From contig JAQURG010000007.1 in NCBI GenBank assembly GCA_028715725.1, positions 1-64,000 of the forward strand: a DNA stretch of 64,000 bases. Direction: 5' to 3'. A model generated the notes under the pieces. The model ran no database searches. It saw only the letters and a list, made by a program, of their open reading frames with translations, and was not told where the DNA came from. A program made the translations under genes and the position numbers. Position 1 is the stretch's first letter; every line of letters starts with the position of its first letter. Below are positions 26,490 to 35,995 of the stretch, one piece after another. Origin of the DNA: Methylococcales bacterium. Lineage in GTDB: Bacteria > Pseudomonadota > Gammaproteobacteria > Methylococcales > Methylomonadaceae.

Positions 26490-26540
26490 TTCTTCTGTTT
26501 ATTTGCTTTAAAAATTTAATCCCCCTATAATTGTCGGCTG

Positions 26541-26726
26541 CTTTCAGGTTCCAGAAGATAGTCAAATCTAATGGTTAAACGGGAAGTCGGTAAGGCTTTG
26601 GCCAAATCCGACGCTGCCCCCGCAACGGTATATAAGTAAAGAATCATCGGCACGCCACTGTGTTATTCAGCATGGGAAGGTGATGATTCAGGTTTAACGC
26701 CACTTATAAGCCCGGAGACCGGCCCA
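26541..26726 (+). promoter_or_regulatory. Cobalamin (B12) riboswitch
   Basis: All main landmarks of the B12 element are in order: a 5' GGTTCC, TTAAACGGGAAGTCGGT, the B12 box GCTGCCCCCGCAACGGTA (26613-26630), GCCACTG (26654-26660), GGGAAGG (26674-26680), and the closing AAGCCCGGAGACCGGCC (26708-26724). It lies about 175 bases before the btuB start and should lower btuB and btuM expression when adenosyl- or related cobalamin is plentiful. Confidence 0.97.
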
Positions 26727-26900
26727 AAAGCATAATTCGCTACAGCGGAGGGCTGTTTTGCGTAATGATTGCTGCGTTTTTGTGTCTTTCATCCTCTATT
26801 GTCCTTCGCTGTAATTACTCAATCGTCATGCGCGGGCGGCGCACGACCGCATGGATGCAGAAGCTGGAGCAATGCAGGAGCAATTGCCGAGAGGACAATC

Positions 26901-28742
26901 ATGCAAAAAATTATAGCCGGTTCAATATTGCTTGCGGGTATCAATGCCCAGACGCAAGCCCAGGATAACTCCACTAACAATTCGTTAGAACTCCCCAATA
27001 TGGTGGTTACGGCCACAAGAACGGAAGTTGTCAAAAATCAGCTATCCGCTGCAGCTACCGTTTATACCCGTGAGGATATTGATCGTTTGCAAGTTAAAAC
27101 CTTGCCCGAGCTGTTGAAGGGCACAACCGGTGTCGATATAACGCAAGCCGGCGGTTATGGAAAAACGACCAGTTTATTTATGCGCGGCACTAATTCGGAC
27201 CAGGTTCTGGTGCTGATAGATGGGATTAAAGCCGGTTCTGCGACCTTGGGTACAACCTCTTTTGAATTTATTCCGGTTGATCAGATTGAGCGGATTGAAA
27301 TTATTCGCGGACCGCAGTCAAGCCTGTACGGATCAGAAGCCATGGGCGGTGTTATTCAGATTTTTACCCGTAAAGGCAACATGCAGGAAAAACCAAGCAT
27401 CTCGCTGGTTGGGGGCGGGGGTTCATACAATACCTATAATCTCGCCGGCACCGTTAGTGGAAAATGGAAAAATAGCTGGTATACCTTGGGTTCGTCACGT
27501 TTTGATTCCCAAGGATTTAACGCCCGGCAGCCAACTCCCGGTCGTTTCGGCGTTAATCAGCCTGACCACGACGGCTACCAGAATACGGCAGTAAATGCAC
27601 GGCTGGGCCACCGCTTTGAAAATAACGCCGAGGTTGAAGCGTTTTTTATGCGGGCTGAGGGAAAAACCGAATATGACGGCTTCCAGGATAAAACGGAATT
27701 TGTAAATCAGGTTGTGGGCGTTACAGGCAGCATGGATATTGTTGAAGACTGGCGTTCAACCCTGCGTTTGGGGCAAAGCCGGGATGATAGCGATCAGTTT
27801 GCTCCGGATGGTGATTTTGCCAGCCAATTTAACAGCACCCGCTGGAACGCCAGCTGGCTGAATCAGTTTACTTTATCCGACGAGCATCAACTGATCGCAG
27901 GTGCGGACTATCGCCTGGATCAAGTGGACAGCTCGGAAACATTCGCAGAGAGCTCTCGCTATGATGTGGGTGTATTTACTGAATTACGCAGCCAGTTATG
28001 GGATGATCATTTTGTTAATGCTTCGGTACGTTGGGATGAAAATGAAGCCTTCGGTGATTATGTGACCGGCAATGCCGGCTGGCGCTATAACTGGAATTAC
28101 GGTATTAGTCTATTGGCAAACTTCGGCAATGCCTTCAAGGCGCCGTCTTTCAATGATCTTTATTTTCCGAATTACGGCAACCCCAACCTGAAGCCGGAAG
28201 AGTCAACATCGTTTGAAGCCGGTCTTGCCGGAAATCATGATTGGGGCCAATGGGAAATTCGCGCCTATCATACCAATATCGACAATTTGATTACACCGAC
28301 AATGGACGCGGTAACTTTCGATTTTAGTGCGCAAAACATTGGTAAAGCGCAAATTGACGGCATTGAAACTGAAATCGGCACGCAACTGATGGGCTGGAAT
28401 GGCAAACTGAGCATGAATCTGCTAGGCCCCAAGAGTCGGGAGACTAATAAAATATTGCCCCGCCGCGCCCAGGAAACCTTGGCGTTTGATTTATCAAGAT
28501 CATTCGGAGCTGTCGATGTAGGCGCTAATGTGCTGGCGCAAGGTGAGCGTTTTGATGACATACAGAATACAATCAGGGTTGCAGGCTATGTGACCGTTGA
28601 TTTAAGATCAGCTTATCATTTCAATAAAAACTGGATGGTAAGCGCAAAGCTGAATAATCTGCTGGATAAAAATTATCAAACAGTCGATACTTTTAATAGC
28701 GCAGGTAGAAACTTTTTTGTTTCAATCCATTATAACAACTGA
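26901..28742 (+). CDS. btuB: TonB-dependent vitamin B12 outer-membrane receptor
   Basis: A 613-residue receptor starting at the ATG at 26901, which has a GAGGAC ribosome-binding site. An ATG further upstream at 26769 is in frame but would put the riboswitch output region inside the gene, so I reject it. A signal peptide (to about AQA, residue 20) is followed by the TonB box-like LPNMVVTATR, the plug domain (ELLKGTTGVDITQAGGYG, LFMRGTNSDQVLVLIDG, ERIEIIRGPQSSLYGSEAMGGVI), and a 22-strand barrel ending in an aromatic-poor IHYNN. The riboswitch and the downstream importer gene support B12 as substrate. Confidence 0.95.
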   Translation: MQKIIAGSILLAGINAQTQAQDNSTNNSLELPNMVVTATRTEVVKNQLSAAATVYTREDIDRLQVKTLPELLKGTTGVDITQAGGYGKTTSLFMRGTNSDQVLVLIDGIKAGSATLGTTSFEFIPVDQIERIEIIRGPQSSLYGSEAMGGVIQIFTRKGNMQEKPSISLVGGGGSYNTYNLAGTVSGKWKNSWYTLGSSRFDSQGFNARQPTPGRFGVNQPDHDGYQNTAVNARLGHRFENNAEVEAFFMRAEGKTEYDGFQDKTEFVNQVVGVTGSMDIVEDWRSTLRLGQSRDDSDQFAPDGDFASQFNSTRWNASWLNQFTLSDEHQLIAGADYRLDQVDSSETFAESSRYDVGVFTELRSQLWDDHFVNASVRWDENEAFGDYVTGNAGWRYNWNYGISLLANFGNAFKAPSFNDLYFPNYGNPNLKPEESTSFEAGLAGNHDWGQWEIRAYHTNIDNLITPTMDAVTFDFSAQNIGKAQIDGIETEIGTQLMGWNGKLSMNLLGPKSRETNKILPRRAQETLAFDLSRSFGAVDVGANVLAQGERFDDIQNTIRVAGYVTVDLRSAYHFNKNWMVSAKLNNLLDKNYQTVDTFNSAGRNFFVSIHYNN

Positions 28743-28807: not shown

Positions 28808-29389
28808 ATGAATATAAAACAATGGTTGCAAGCCGAGTATTTACCTATTCCCTTGATCGCACTGATGGTATTGACGCGCTTTCATCATTTTGGCGATGTA
28901 TTACATCTTCCCGACGCTTCGCTGGCGGTATTTTTCTTCGCCGGTTTTTACCGTAAAAAAGCATTGCTTGGCTTCTTATTGGCTTTGGCCGCATTGATAG
29001 ATTTCATTGCCATCAAAAACGGCACCAGCAGCTGGTGCGTTTCTCCCGCTTATGTTTTTCTGATTCCAACCTATGCCGTAATGTGGTTTGCCGGCCGTTA
29101 CTGCTCTACGCTGAAATCCATCAAAGTTGCTGAACTGACTTTGCAGTTGGGCCTGCTGATTGTTGCAACCACGATTGCCTTCGCCATTTCAAACGGCAGC
29201 TTTTATTTATTTTCAGGACGTTATGATAGTTTGAGTTTGGGGCAGTATTTCTCGGCAATGGTTCAGTATTACCCGCCTTATATGGGTTATACGTTAATTT
29301 ATGCGGTTGCAGGTTTAACATTTGTTAAACTGTTTAATGCACTGCCCGACGCGCAATCCAAGTATGGAGAGGTTGACAGAAGGGATTGA
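28808..29389 (+). CDS. btuM: BtuM-type solitary B12 transporter (ECF S-component-like)
   Basis: A 193-residue membrane protein of about six helices. It follows btuB by 65 bases, with a good SD (CTGGAGG). The block SSWCVSPAYVFLIPTY, with Cys77, matches the conserved cysteine region of BtuM, where the Thiobacillus denitrificans protein uses a Cys to bind and decyanate cobalamin (known of the family). TRFHHFGDVLHLPDASLAVFF is another strong block. BtuM can import B12 without the ECF energising module. No BtuCDF is in the window, so this may be the main inner-membrane route, under the same riboswitch. Confidence 0.85.
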   Translation: MNIKQWLQAEYLPIPLIALMVLTRFHHFGDVLHLPDASLAVFFFAGFYRKKALLGFLLALAALIDFIAIKNGTSSWCVSPAYVFLIPTYAVMWFAGRYCSTLKSIKVAELTLQLGLLIVATTIAFAISNGSFYLFSGRYDSLSLGQYFSAMVQYYPPYMGYTLIYAVAGLTFVKLFNALPDAQSKYGEVDRRD

Positions 29390-29433
29390 TAAGGCGGTTG
29401 AGTAGTTTACAGCCGAACTCCACTTGATATACT

Positions 29434-29492
29434 CGGCTATTGCTGCCGTCATTAGCCTTGCGGTTTATGAGGCCATGGCACGACAATAGCCG
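29434..29492. repeat. Inverted repeat between btuM and the next gene
   Basis: CGGCTATTG (29434-29442) and CAATAGCCG (29484-29492) form a perfect 9-base stem with a 41-base loop. GCCTTTTT follows (29496-29503). It may be a weak terminator that separates btuM from the next gene, or a scar of a mobile repeat. Confidence 0.5.
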
Positions 29493-29515
29493 AACGCCTT
29501 TTTGGGGATAGACGA

Positions 29516-30112
29516 ATGACAATGGCAACAAATGACTCAGGCACTAGTGAGACTGTTGAAAATCCGGATGGGACATTCACTGAATATACCTACTTCGAGC
29601 CCACCGAAGAAAAGATGAAAGAGTTGTCGCAGGATTTATTCTCAAAAAACTGGGACAAAATTGTCGTTGGCCCTTGCGTTGAAGGCGCAGTTTTTGAAAT
29701 ACGTTTTGCAGAAGAACCCAGGCTTTCATATTCTGATGGCTATCTAACTGTTGACCTGGGTCACTGGCATTTTCATCTTTGCATTGGACCGCACAGAAAT
29801 TGTCCATCTGAAGAACTGAGAAAGAACCGTCCAGTTGCCAAGTGCGGTTTTTTTAAAATGTGTAGCGGTAAAAACGGCGGCGGCCGTAGTTGGGGTTTGC
29901 GGATGTGGAACGGCTATGGCGATCAATTGACAACCGTCTTTTTGCCGTCGCCGTTTTTATCTGATGGCCAGCAGGTATTGCCTGAACCGCAATGGGAACG
30001 CCTGAATTTATATTACAGTTTGCGGGAAAAATATTTGGGCGAACCGAGGCCGGAAAATTTTAAACCCGCAGACGCGTCCGATAGTAATCCTTTTTTGAAT
30101 GGGTATGGCTAA
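29516..30112 (+). CDS. Unrecognised conserved-looking protein, His/Cys-rich
   Basis: A 198-residue soluble protein with no signal peptide. I do not recognise the family. A dense polar core is visible: DLGHWHFHLCIGPHRNCP (several His and Cys in 18 residues), then RPVAKCGFFKMCSGKNGG, and RSWGLRMWNGYGDQLTTVFL. The C-terminus has PQWERLNLYYSLREKYLG. Together the His/Cys cluster and conserved Trp/Arg residues suggest a metal, heme or tetrapyrrole site, but that is inference. It lies 127 bases after btuM on the same strand, behind an inverted repeat, so riboswitch control is possible but unproven. Two in-frame ATGs (29516, 29522) compete as starts. Confidence 0.75.
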   Translation: MTMATNDSGTSETVENPDGTFTEYTYFEPTEEKMKELSQDLFSKNWDKIVVGPCVEGAVFEIRFAEEPRLSYSDGYLTVDLGHWHFHLCIGPHRNCPSEELRKNRPVAKCGFFKMCSGKNGGGRSWGLRMWNGYGDQLTTVFLPSPFLSDGQQVLPEPQWERLNLYYSLREKYLGEPRPENFKPADASDSNPFLNGYG

Positions 30113-34237: not shown

Positions 34238-35995
34238 ATGAAAAAAATATATTGTATAGTCCCCGTAATCTATCTGTTAAGTGGTTGTAATGAGCCGCCG
34301 AAAGCTCCATCAACTCCCCCGACTCCTCCTTCCAAAACATTATCAATCAGCGCTTGCCCGCAAGAGGATAACGAAGAAGGCGATTATAGCCCCACTGATC
34401 AGAAGGCCTTATTGGCGGACGTTCTGGCTGGAAAAAATGAAGAAGTATTCAATGAGGCGTTCGAGAAAGGAGATATCATTTTCGGCACGAGCTTTACTTT
34501 GCAGCAGGGAGGCGGGATTTATATTGGCACTGCGGAGCCTTCGCACTTTACGAGAATACCGCGCGCAGACCAGAACGGTCCGGGGGAATGGGGCGACGTA
34601 AATCGCAAACTGGTACGGCCGACAGGTCCCAATGCGCAATCCTGCGTAGCCTGTCATAATCAGCCTGTTGAAGATGGCGCAGGTTCTACCGCCGCCAATG
34701 TCCATCGTATTCCTCAACTTGAAGAAAATCCGACCTTAACGATTCAGCGCAATACACCGCATGTATTAGGGTCTGGCGCTTTGCAGCGTCTGGCCGAAGA
34801 AATGACTGATGATTTATTAAGAATCAAGCAGGAAGCTGAAAAAGAAGCCTGCAATAACAAAGGCGGCGGTATCAATAAAGAGTTGAAGACCAAAGGCGTA
34901 AGTTTTGGATATTTCACGATGACTTGTGTAGACGGCACGGCCAAGATTGATGAGGTAAATTCAAAAGTTGAAGGCATCGACCCCGATTGGGTTGTCCGGC
35001 CCTATGAATGGAAAAAAAGCGTCGCCTTCTTACGGGATTTTATGCGCAACGCCGGTAATAATGAAACCGGCATGCAAGCCGTGGAATTAACAGGTAAAGG
35101 CCTGGATGAGGATAACGACAAGAAAGTTGATGAGCTCACTGTCGGCGATATGACCGCATTCACTGTTTATATGGCCGCACAACCGCGTCCGACCACCAGG
35201 TTAGAGCTTGATGATCTCGGCATACTTGCAGCGGCAGAGCAACAACTCAAACCGTCAGAACGTGCGCAAATCAAGCATGGCGATGAGTTGTTCAAGACGA
35301 TAGAATGCAGCAGTTGCCACCAGCCGGAAATGACTTTAAACAATTCTTTTTTTCAGGAGCCTAGCGCTTCCGTTTATTATCGCGACAAGAAAGAGGATTT
35401 CTTCAAAAAATACAAGGTGCAAGTCGATATGGAAGCGGAGGGGGTAACGCCTGCTCATCCGGTCAAGTTTGATCTGACCAAAGATCAACCGAATAATCTG
35501 CTCTGCAAGGATAAGGAAAAAATCCGGCTGGGCGCTTTCGAAAAGCGCAATGGAAAAGCCGTTGTACGTCTCTACAGCGATTTGAAGCGGCATTATATGG
35601 GCGACCAATTAGCAGAAACAGTCGATGAACTGGAAGAGCCCGGCGAATATGTCAATGGTCATATGAGCCAGGTTAACTATGAACCTGTGAATGCCATCAT
35701 GCCGGCTGACAGGGATGCTTTAAGCAGCGGCAAAGCCACTTTCGGTACTGAAGAATTATGGGGCGTAGCTTGTACAGGCCCCTGGATGCACGACGGCCGC
35801 GCCACAACTTTGCGGGAAGCGATTCAGCTTCATGGCGGGGAAGCGGCTGCATCACGCGACAAGTTCAATAAACTCAGTGAAAAGGATCAAAAAGACGTTA
35901 TTGCCTCTCTGGGCAATCTGGTGCTTTACCTGAATAATGCCGAAAGCGGCAAAGCACCGGACAGCCTTGCTGATATCTGTGAAGTCAAGGATTAG
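34238..35995 (+). CDS. Di-heme oxidoreductase, cytochrome c peroxidase/DHOR-like lipoprotein
   Basis: A 585-residue exported lipoprotein. The lipobox LLSGC gives the lipidated Cys17. Two c-type heme sites are present: CVACH (Cys136-His140) and CSSCH (Cys357-His361). GDIIFGTSF and the late block CTGPWMHDGRATTLREAIQLHGGEA are typical of DHOR/MauG-related proteins, where the closing HDGRA and HGGEA segments sit near the heme. Members act as peroxidases, thiol or small-molecule oxidases. The specific activity here is not known. It is a single gene on the plus strand, in the periplasm or on the outer membrane face. Confidence 0.85.
   Translation: MKKIYCIVPVIYLLSGCNEPPKAPSTPPTPPSKTLSISACPQEDNEEGDYSPTDQKALLADVLAGKNEEVFNEAFEKGDIIFGTSFTLQQGGGIYIGTAEPSHFTRIPRADQNGPGEWGDVNRKLVRPTGPNAQSCVACHNQPVEDGAGSTAANVHRIPQLEENPTLTIQRNTPHVLGSGALQRLAEEMTDDLLRIKQEAEKEACNNKGGGINKELKTKGVSFGYFTMTCVDGTAKIDEVNSKVEGIDPDWVVRPYEWKKSVAFLRDFMRNAGNNETGMQAVELTGKGLDEDNDKKVDELTVGDMTAFTVYMAAQPRPTTRLELDDLGILAAAEQQLKPSERAQIKHGDELFKTIECSSCHQPEMTLNNSFFQEPSASVYYRDKKEDFFKKYKVQVDMEAEGVTPAHPVKFDLTKDQPNNLLCKDKEKIRLGAFEKRNGKAVVRLYSDLKRHYMGDQLAETVDELEEPGEYVNGHMSQVNYEPVNAIMPADRDALSSGKATFGTEELWGVACTGPWMHDGRATTLREAIQLHGGEAAASRDKFNKLSEKDQKDVIASLGNLVLYLNNAESGKAPDSLADICEVKD

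Follow-up and report, generated by a model that had tools for sequence, protein, structure and literature searches.

DUF7676, a member of the cobalamin uptake regulon with a predicted heme-chaperone-like fold, as a candidate corrinoid handler

The stretch of DNA analysed here (hereafter the window) comprises 64,000 nucleotides of contig JAQURG010000007.1 from a Methylococcales bacterium (assembly GCA_028715725.1). Its forward strand carries, in this order, a cobalamin riboswitch, a gene for a btuB-like TonB-dependent receptor, btuM and an open frame of 198 codons (Table 1). The riboswitch, one of two in this genome, meets the test that we used for a cobalamin uptake regulon, namely a riboswitch upstream. 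The receptor scores 553.6 bits against its best NCBIfam model, below that model's cut-off of 599.7; its start is an ATG picked by reading, the listed open reading frame beginning at 26769. The predicted BtuM matches the PDB chain entitled ‘Cobalamin ABC transporter’, and its Cys77 aligns with the cysteine of FCVSPAY, such that this neighbour of the 198-codon frame has both the similarity to the solved BtuM and the cysteine by which we defined BtuM membership.

A preliminary description of this DNA, made from its letters alone, had pointed to the 198-residue product as an unrecognised protein bearing HWHFHLC (residues 83-89), PHRNCP, KCGFFKMCSG and WGLRMWNGYGDQ, encoded downstream of btuM on the same strand. 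The frame, its motifs and its place behind btuM are as described there. ‘Unrecognised’ holds for the function, which is unassigned, but not for the sequence, which falls in Pfam DUF7676 (185.4 bits against a gathering score of 27, covering profile positions 2-166 of 166), with no weighty sequence match in NCBIfam or the PDB. Given the strength of the Pfam match, the frame is, judged by sequence similarity, a genuine conserved gene that is unrecognised in function only. It is single-copy in this genome. Elsewhere in the window, positions 34238-35995 encode a 585-aa c-type cytochrome with a Pfam match to di-haem oxidoreductase (DHOR; E 8.7e-13).

Table 1. Features of the window, and related features at homologous loci (L numbers)
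Feature	Position	Strand	Evidence
Cobalamin riboswitch (RF00174)	26529..26741	+	Rfam 101.5 bits, gathering score 31.5
btuB-like TonB-dependent receptor	26901..28742	+	best NCBIfam model TIGR01779 TonB-B12, 5.8e-166
btuM, predicted B12 importer; Cys of [FW]CVSPAY = Cys77	28808..29389	+	8c7p/8ovv, E 2.8e-25
Eroded remnant of DUF5522-like small Cys-rich gene, holds inverted repeat	29364..29500	+	alignment with L011, L012, L013
DUF7676 protein, 198 aa, predicted HemS/ChuX-fold corrinoid handler	29516..30112	+	Pfam PF24724, 6.9e-55; model and fold searches
Codons of H85-x-H87-x-C89	29768..29782	+	conserved His/His/Cys, one predicted strand 85-89 (DSSP on model)
Open DUF5522-type gene	L011:9727-9993, L012:9832-9993, L013:9684-10001		
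Hydrophobic protein, ~200 aa, no Pfam match, 3' of DUF7676	L032:8544-9116, L037:8815-9405, L073:10279-10893		

An inverted repeat with perfect 10-nt arms (29433-29442 and 29484-29493) does lie between btuM and the DUF7676 gene, and on its account the linkage had been called possibly casual. This suspicion did not hold up, as btuM also adjoins or lies near DUF7676 at five further loci (L010 to L014). At three of these (L011, L012 and L013) a small Cys-rich gene is still open between the two, and the product of the L012 copy belongs to Pfam DUF5522 (E 8.7e-18); the gene is largely deleted in L010, and the corresponding remnant in the window is closed by stops in each of the three frames. The forward strand of the 126-base gap between btuM and DUF7676 showed no terminator-like site, and the gap holds one promoter-like site (29406-29433), fewer than the 2.9 given by shuffles of the scanned region. 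That DUF7676 is transcribed jointly with the riboswitch and btuB rests only on the shared strand and the terminator-free gap, without transcript data.

The association with cobalamin riboswitches was then counted across the family. A riboswitch lies on the same strand, no more than 15 kb upstream, for 24 of 34 DUF7676 copies (23 of 30 when only near-full-length copies are taken) and in 21 of 27 genomes, where uniform placement of the riboswitches, of which these genomes hold 1 to 10 each, would predict about 0.2. For 13 copies the riboswitch lies 2.1 to 2.6 kb away, a stretch as long as a receptor gene, and for a larger number it is no more than 3 kb away. Among genomes collected only once the idea had arisen (the order of G973, without G973 itself, on which the sample was centred), five of seven have the riboswitch, 2.2-2.5 kb upstream. 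At plasmid loci, it precedes the cluster's receptor gene or its transporter genes in 10 of 12 cases (12 of the 14 matches were fetched; two are near-duplicates).

No riboswitch was detected within this distance for 10 of the 34 copies. At least three of these (in G293, G414 and contig C82 of G568) lie on short contigs, and those of G573, G1439 and G1466 (20.4 kb) lack it despite room upstream; the two plasmid loci without a cobalamin riboswitch upstream are L035 and L037. We left out of the count one riboswitch row below the family cut-off (G572 C66, 28.7 bits) and a DUF7676 fragment of 39 positions (G568 C156:10861), and counted a pair of pieces on G568 C375 as one. Among the 34 copies are fragments (G374 C159, G268, G568 C140 and C375) and a stop-bearing copy (G049 C1:11809); loci L066, L069 and L070 carry fragments. 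The window's own genome and several close relatives from Methylobacter are among the 27 genomes, which are therefore not independent. The preliminary description would have been refuted by homologs scattered without a link to B12, and the opposite is observed: DUF7676 is a member of the B12 regulon, a statement about which we have next to no doubt, and the link is strong, with about as much support as genome data can give.

The family is rare and patchy. It occurs in 6 of the 201 genomes sampled from the window's family, in 5 of 369 from its class, in all three of its genus and in 3 of 398 in the phylum sample, one of these last three being the window's own; it is also found in 1 of 150 genomes of a Streptomyces genus sample and in 8 of 249 genomes of one order sample, whose alphaproteobacterial lineage is our reading. 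Apart from that of the phylum sample, each of these counts takes in the genome on which the sample was centred. The 14 plasmid records that carry DUF7676 come from Cyanobacteriota, Actinomycetota and Pseudomonadota, and one Acidobacteriota record adds to these phyla; no match was found among phage records. The record of G568 (locus L022), which has several DUF7676 copies or pieces, is titled Synechococcaceae cyanobacterium; a search of its class sample gave the gammaproteobacterial matches already obtained for the class of the window, and the record is probably mislabelled.

The gene neighbourhood follows an order that is usually riboswitch, TonB receptor, DUF7676 and then either an ABC importer or BtuM. 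Of the 38 loci in the gene table, 25 have a TonB receptor that belongs to a single similarity cluster and 14 have ABC permeases that likewise form one cluster, and together with the riboswitch counts and the btuM genes given above these figures bear out the proximity of homologs to btuB, btuM and riboswitches that had been offered as a check on the B12 reading. Receptor, DUF7676, substrate-binding protein, permease and ATPase are annotated in plasmids of Azospirillum, Diaphorobacter, Nostoc, Trichormus, Paracoccus and Halotia (in Paracoccus the binding-protein gene is annotated as hypothetical). BtuM takes the place of the ABC genes in the window and in L010, L011, L012 and L014, and L013 has both, with receptor, DUF7676 and ABC genes followed by BtuM, DUF5522 and a second, broken DUF7676; this copy behind btuM (L013:9953-10600, in G049 C1) is interrupted by a stop and called as two open reading frames, and the contig's other copy, linked to the ABC genes, is intact. 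In L032, L037 and L073 neither ABC genes nor BtuM but a small hydrophobic protein without a Pfam match occupies this position, making it a candidate inner-membrane B12 carrier. Since the type of transporter varies while DUF7676 stays, we infer, as a suggestion, that DUF7676 acts on the cargo and not as a part of the transporter.

Genes for the processing of corrinoids recur as well. L014 has a frameshift-split BtuR/CobO adenosyltransferase between BtuM and DUF7676; L016 has CbiZ, CbiB, an FhuF_C protein and a PduO-type adenosyltransferase ahead of DUF7676, with the riboswitch 11.5 kb upstream; L018 has a CbiB-type sequence immediately upstream of DUF7676, and L073 has CbiZ nearby. An FhuF_C protein also adjoins DUF7676 in L021, L031, L035 and L094 and lies in the same cluster in L068, and the cyanobacterial DUF7676 proteins (L030, L033, L036, L037, L075 and L076) run on into a [2Fe-2S] thioredoxin-like ferredoxin domain, for which the Pfam scores in L033 are just below cut-off. 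From the FhuF_C neighbours and the cyanobacterial fusions taken together, it follows that an Fe-S electron carrier is a repeated partner of DUF7676.

Some loci stand apart. The riboswitch-less DUF7676-ferredoxin gene of L037, on a Gloeocapsopsis dulcis plasmid, sits among thrS, folE, hisI, cysS and COG0523 genes, a set that looks like a zinc-starvation regulon. Zinc or siderophore uptake, which the plasmid contexts had suggested, was dropped as an explanation in view of the riboswitches in most loci, L037 remaining an exception. L093 (G1439) holds a lone DUF7676 copy with no riboswitch near, and a 1253-aa protein close by, which may, from the look of its sequence, be a B12-dependent ribonucleotide reductase. 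Both G973 copies have a carbon-nitrogen hydrolase ahead of the riboswitch and receptor (L072:5645 and L073:5481).

Conservation within the family singles out one of the motifs. H85, H87 and C89 of HWHFHLC are present in all 41 near-full-length homologs (34 of 34 aligned and 7 of 7 further loci), and W46, G57, E61, P68, G75, Y76, T78, N132 and P144 are likewise invariant among the 34 aligned. In the predicted model the three residues lie on one strand (85-89), and from strand geometry their side chains may be inferred to alternate to one face. The proposal that the His/Cys motifs form a metal or tetrapyrrole site is therefore upheld in part: a family lacking conserved His/Cys would have refuted it, and HxHxC is found throughout, but two of the three Cys-bearing motifs, PHRNCP and KCGFFKMC, are not conserved, with C96, C110 and C116 present in only 4, 4 and 2 of the 34 sequences, and there are no binding data. 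The conserved SWGxR..NG segment reflects the fold and contains no evident metal site.

Structure prediction places DUF7676 among the heme chaperones. An AlphaFold2 model of the window protein built on 13 sequences (pLDDT 84.5, pTM 0.83) was matched by VIA-align to ChuX (Z 10.9, rmsd 3.5 over 133 residues), AGR_C_4470 (10.8) and HutX (9.9), then to PhuS and HemS (both 7.7), against 3.5 for the next unrelated structure. A second model, built on the same 13 sequences with the Streptomyces homolog (35% identity with the protein of the window) in the lead, reached pLDDT 88.6 and gave the same list of matches, with ChuX and AGR_C_4470 at Z 11.3 and the next unrelated structure at 2.8. Foldseek assigned probabilities of 0.99-1.00 to the top HemS/ChuX rows, and the TM-scores were moderate (0.42-0.59 for the best match of the window model). 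The fold criterion for the HemS/ChuX/HutX superfamily is thus fulfilled, on two predicted models only. The fold listings contained no CblC or other B12 protein among the matches, which excludes nothing.

At the sequence level the connection is slight. All 34 aligned members match Pfam DUF7676 and none matches PF05171 or PF06228 (HemS, ChuX_HutX) at E up to 5; neither single-sequence nor profile searches of the PDB yielded anything relevant that would link the sequence with the fold; and hhalign was not significant against six HemS halves (P 0.054) or the C-terminal domains of five CobJ proteins (P 0.017), although its alignment brought GAV-EI..DGYL..HFHL into register. The sole bridge, and a weak one resting on profile similarity, is PF22684, which matches 12 of the 34 members below its cut-off (best E 0.0074) and also matches a CobJ-fused ChuX domain (0.0017). 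That family, LFE_1968-like, is represented by PDB 3na2, itself among the top fold matches, and is of unknown function. In the absence of any other sequence joining to HemS or ChuX we do not file DUF7676 as a member, although it probably works like these proteins and descends with them. Among 143 sampled genomes, eight match ChuX_HutX, and in five of these eight (L097, L098, L100, L101 and L103, all gammaproteobacterial) the domain is C-terminal on a tetrapyrrole methylase of a type that we read as CobJ (Pfam TP_methylase plus ChuX_HutX in L101); three of the five have HFHLH where DUF7676 has HFHLC. These fusions support a use of the ChuX/HutX fold on corrins.

The comparison with heme systems extends to gene order, since the place of DUF7676 between the genes for a TonB receptor and an ABC importer resembles the hmuRSTUV operon. 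The predicted fold is shared with ChuX/HutX (Z ~10-11) and, less closely, with HemS/PhuS/ChuS (Z 6 to 8). Unlike these proteins, however, DUF7676 has HxHxC, is a single domain (with a ferredoxin domain added in cyanobacteria) and is found together with a B12 riboswitch and genes for corrinoids, not for heme.

The nearest experimental system is in Anabaena PCC 7120 (the sources cited here were available only in part, and statements resting on them are limited accordingly). There, a cobalamin riboswitch governs the operon alr4027-btuB2-alr4030-btuF-btuC-btuD, which mediates cyanocobalamin uptake; this uptake is ~50-fold lower in a btuB2 mutant and ~4-fold lower in a btuD mutant, and a btuF insertion has no effect (PMC10878165). 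Its layout of riboswitch, metal-binding protein, receptor, ferredoxin-like alr4030, btuF, btuC and btuD (PMC10878165) is that of the Trichormus locus L033 as well, which has its DUF7676-ferredoxin protein at the place of alr4030. In the available part of that work alr4030 is noted only as ferredoxin-like, unnamed and unstudied (PMC10878165). That alr4030 is a DUF7676 protein is inferred from gene order only, without sequence comparison; by this analogy, the Anabaena experiments would fit a B12 role for DUF7676. Our literature search, which left most subscription papers outside, found no report of DUF7676 in B12 handling, nor any under the name DUF7676.

We propose, with confidence that is evenly balanced, that DUF7676, as part of the B12 uptake regulon, handles corrinoids in the cytosol and is to cobalamin what HmuS/HutX are to heme, with cobalt ligation through HxHxC. 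Cobalamin would enter through the TonB receptor and then through BtuM or a BtuFCD-like ABC transporter, to be passed at the inner membrane face to DUF7676, whose cytosolic place we infer from the absence of an N-terminal hydrophobic stretch. H85, H87 and C89, alternating along one strand of a heme-chaperone-like fold, would provide axial ligands to cobalt; electrons from an Fe-S partner, either an FhuF-type protein or the fused cyanobacterial ferredoxin domain, would help cobalt reduction and loss of the upper ligand; and the product would be handed to a cobalamin adenosyltransferase. Binding of a corrinoid is inferred without binding data and seems probable to us. Action on the upper ligand or on the redox state of cobalt, inferred without activity data, is a slightly less than even call, and ligation and hand-over are inferences too. 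Trafficking or ligand removal, the roles already suggested for this gene, likewise remain inference without biochemistry.

BtuM offers one precedent: the BtuM of another bacterium decyanates B12 through a cysteine on cobalt (PMC6072759). DUF7676 is proposed to work on imported B12 as well and, like its neighbour in the window, has a conserved cysteine as a possible cobalt ligand, but BtuM is a membrane protein of another fold, whereas DUF7676 is soluble by sequence. A second precedent is human CblC (MMACHC), a decyanase and chaperone that is soluble, strips the upper ligand and hands over cobalamin, as proposed here for DUF7676; CblC uses flavin (PMC6072759), and the donor proposed for DUF7676 is an Fe-S protein. 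Carried furthest, the proposal would make DUF7676 an unrelated bacterial answer to CblC, in which a heme-chaperone fold has been remade for corrinoids and a cytosolic His/His/Cys site with an Fe-S partner strips imported cobalamin of its upper ligand, giving base-off cob(II/I)alamin to the adenosyltransferase. This extended form we hold only tentatively and consider rather doubtful.

The strongest rival, unlikely in our view but not lightly set aside, is that DUF7676 performs no chemistry and merely binds, passes on or buffers the imported cytosolic corrinoid, as HutX does with heme. The predicted ChuX/HutX fold suits this well, HutX passes heme to HutZ (PMC12670364), and at loci with BtuM the importer already has a decyanation-linked cysteine (PMC6072759), such that a second decyanating protein would be redundant there; yet the recurrent Fe-S partners and the absolutely conserved His/His/Cys suggest more than carriage. 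Less plausible again is a metal-site protein whose HxHxC binds zinc, iron or cobalt and which serves cobalt or zinc supply instead of corrinoid handling. DUF1636 does lie beside DUF7676 in L033 (by Pfam), L037 and L075 and in the Azospirillum annotation, COG0523/CobW genes are present in L030, L037, L075 and L076, and L037 has its zinc-type gene set, but the riboswitch and the neighbouring genes (adenosyltransferase, CbiZ/CbiB, BtuM) speak for the corrinoid itself, and the fold is that of tetrapyrrole binders.

It is distinctly improbable that these operons import a heme-like or other chelate and are merely regulated by B12: the receptors of L013 and L030 score higher against the heme receptor model than against the B12 model, and the fold is that of heme chaperones, but the window receptor is best matched by the B12 model, and Anabaena btuB2 and btuD mutants lose uptake of 57Co-cyanocobalamin (PMC10878165). 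Degradation, in which DUF7676 would open or strip the corrin to free cobalt as HmuS/ChuS do with heme, has still less to commend it; HemS-type relatives degrade heme (PMC12670364) and the Anabaena operon rises on cobalt starvation (PMC10878165), but many loci keep salvage and adenosylation genes for the intact corrinoid, and destruction of a scarce vitamin within its own uptake regulon is unlikely. That DUF7676 is a chance neighbour without a B12 role, for which only the sparse distribution could speak, scarcely deserves credence and is refuted by the genome counts against their expectation unless the sample is freakish.

The proposal of a corrinoid handler bears on how bacteria process cyano- or alkyl-cobalamin after import. 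A 2025 review, in its available part, lists decyanation in Mycobacterium tuberculosis as an undetermined step, and BtuM is the one bacterial decyanating transporter that it names (PMC12713380). DUF7676, soluble and under B12 control, has one clear candidate site in HxHxC and candidate electron partners, and its part in this processing is directly testable. If the proposal is true, a single fold would serve heme as well as corrin once these have been taken up, by way of operons that share one layout, and if the reading of DUF7676 as a counterpart of CblC is true as well, it would supply a missing step of bacterial B12 use.
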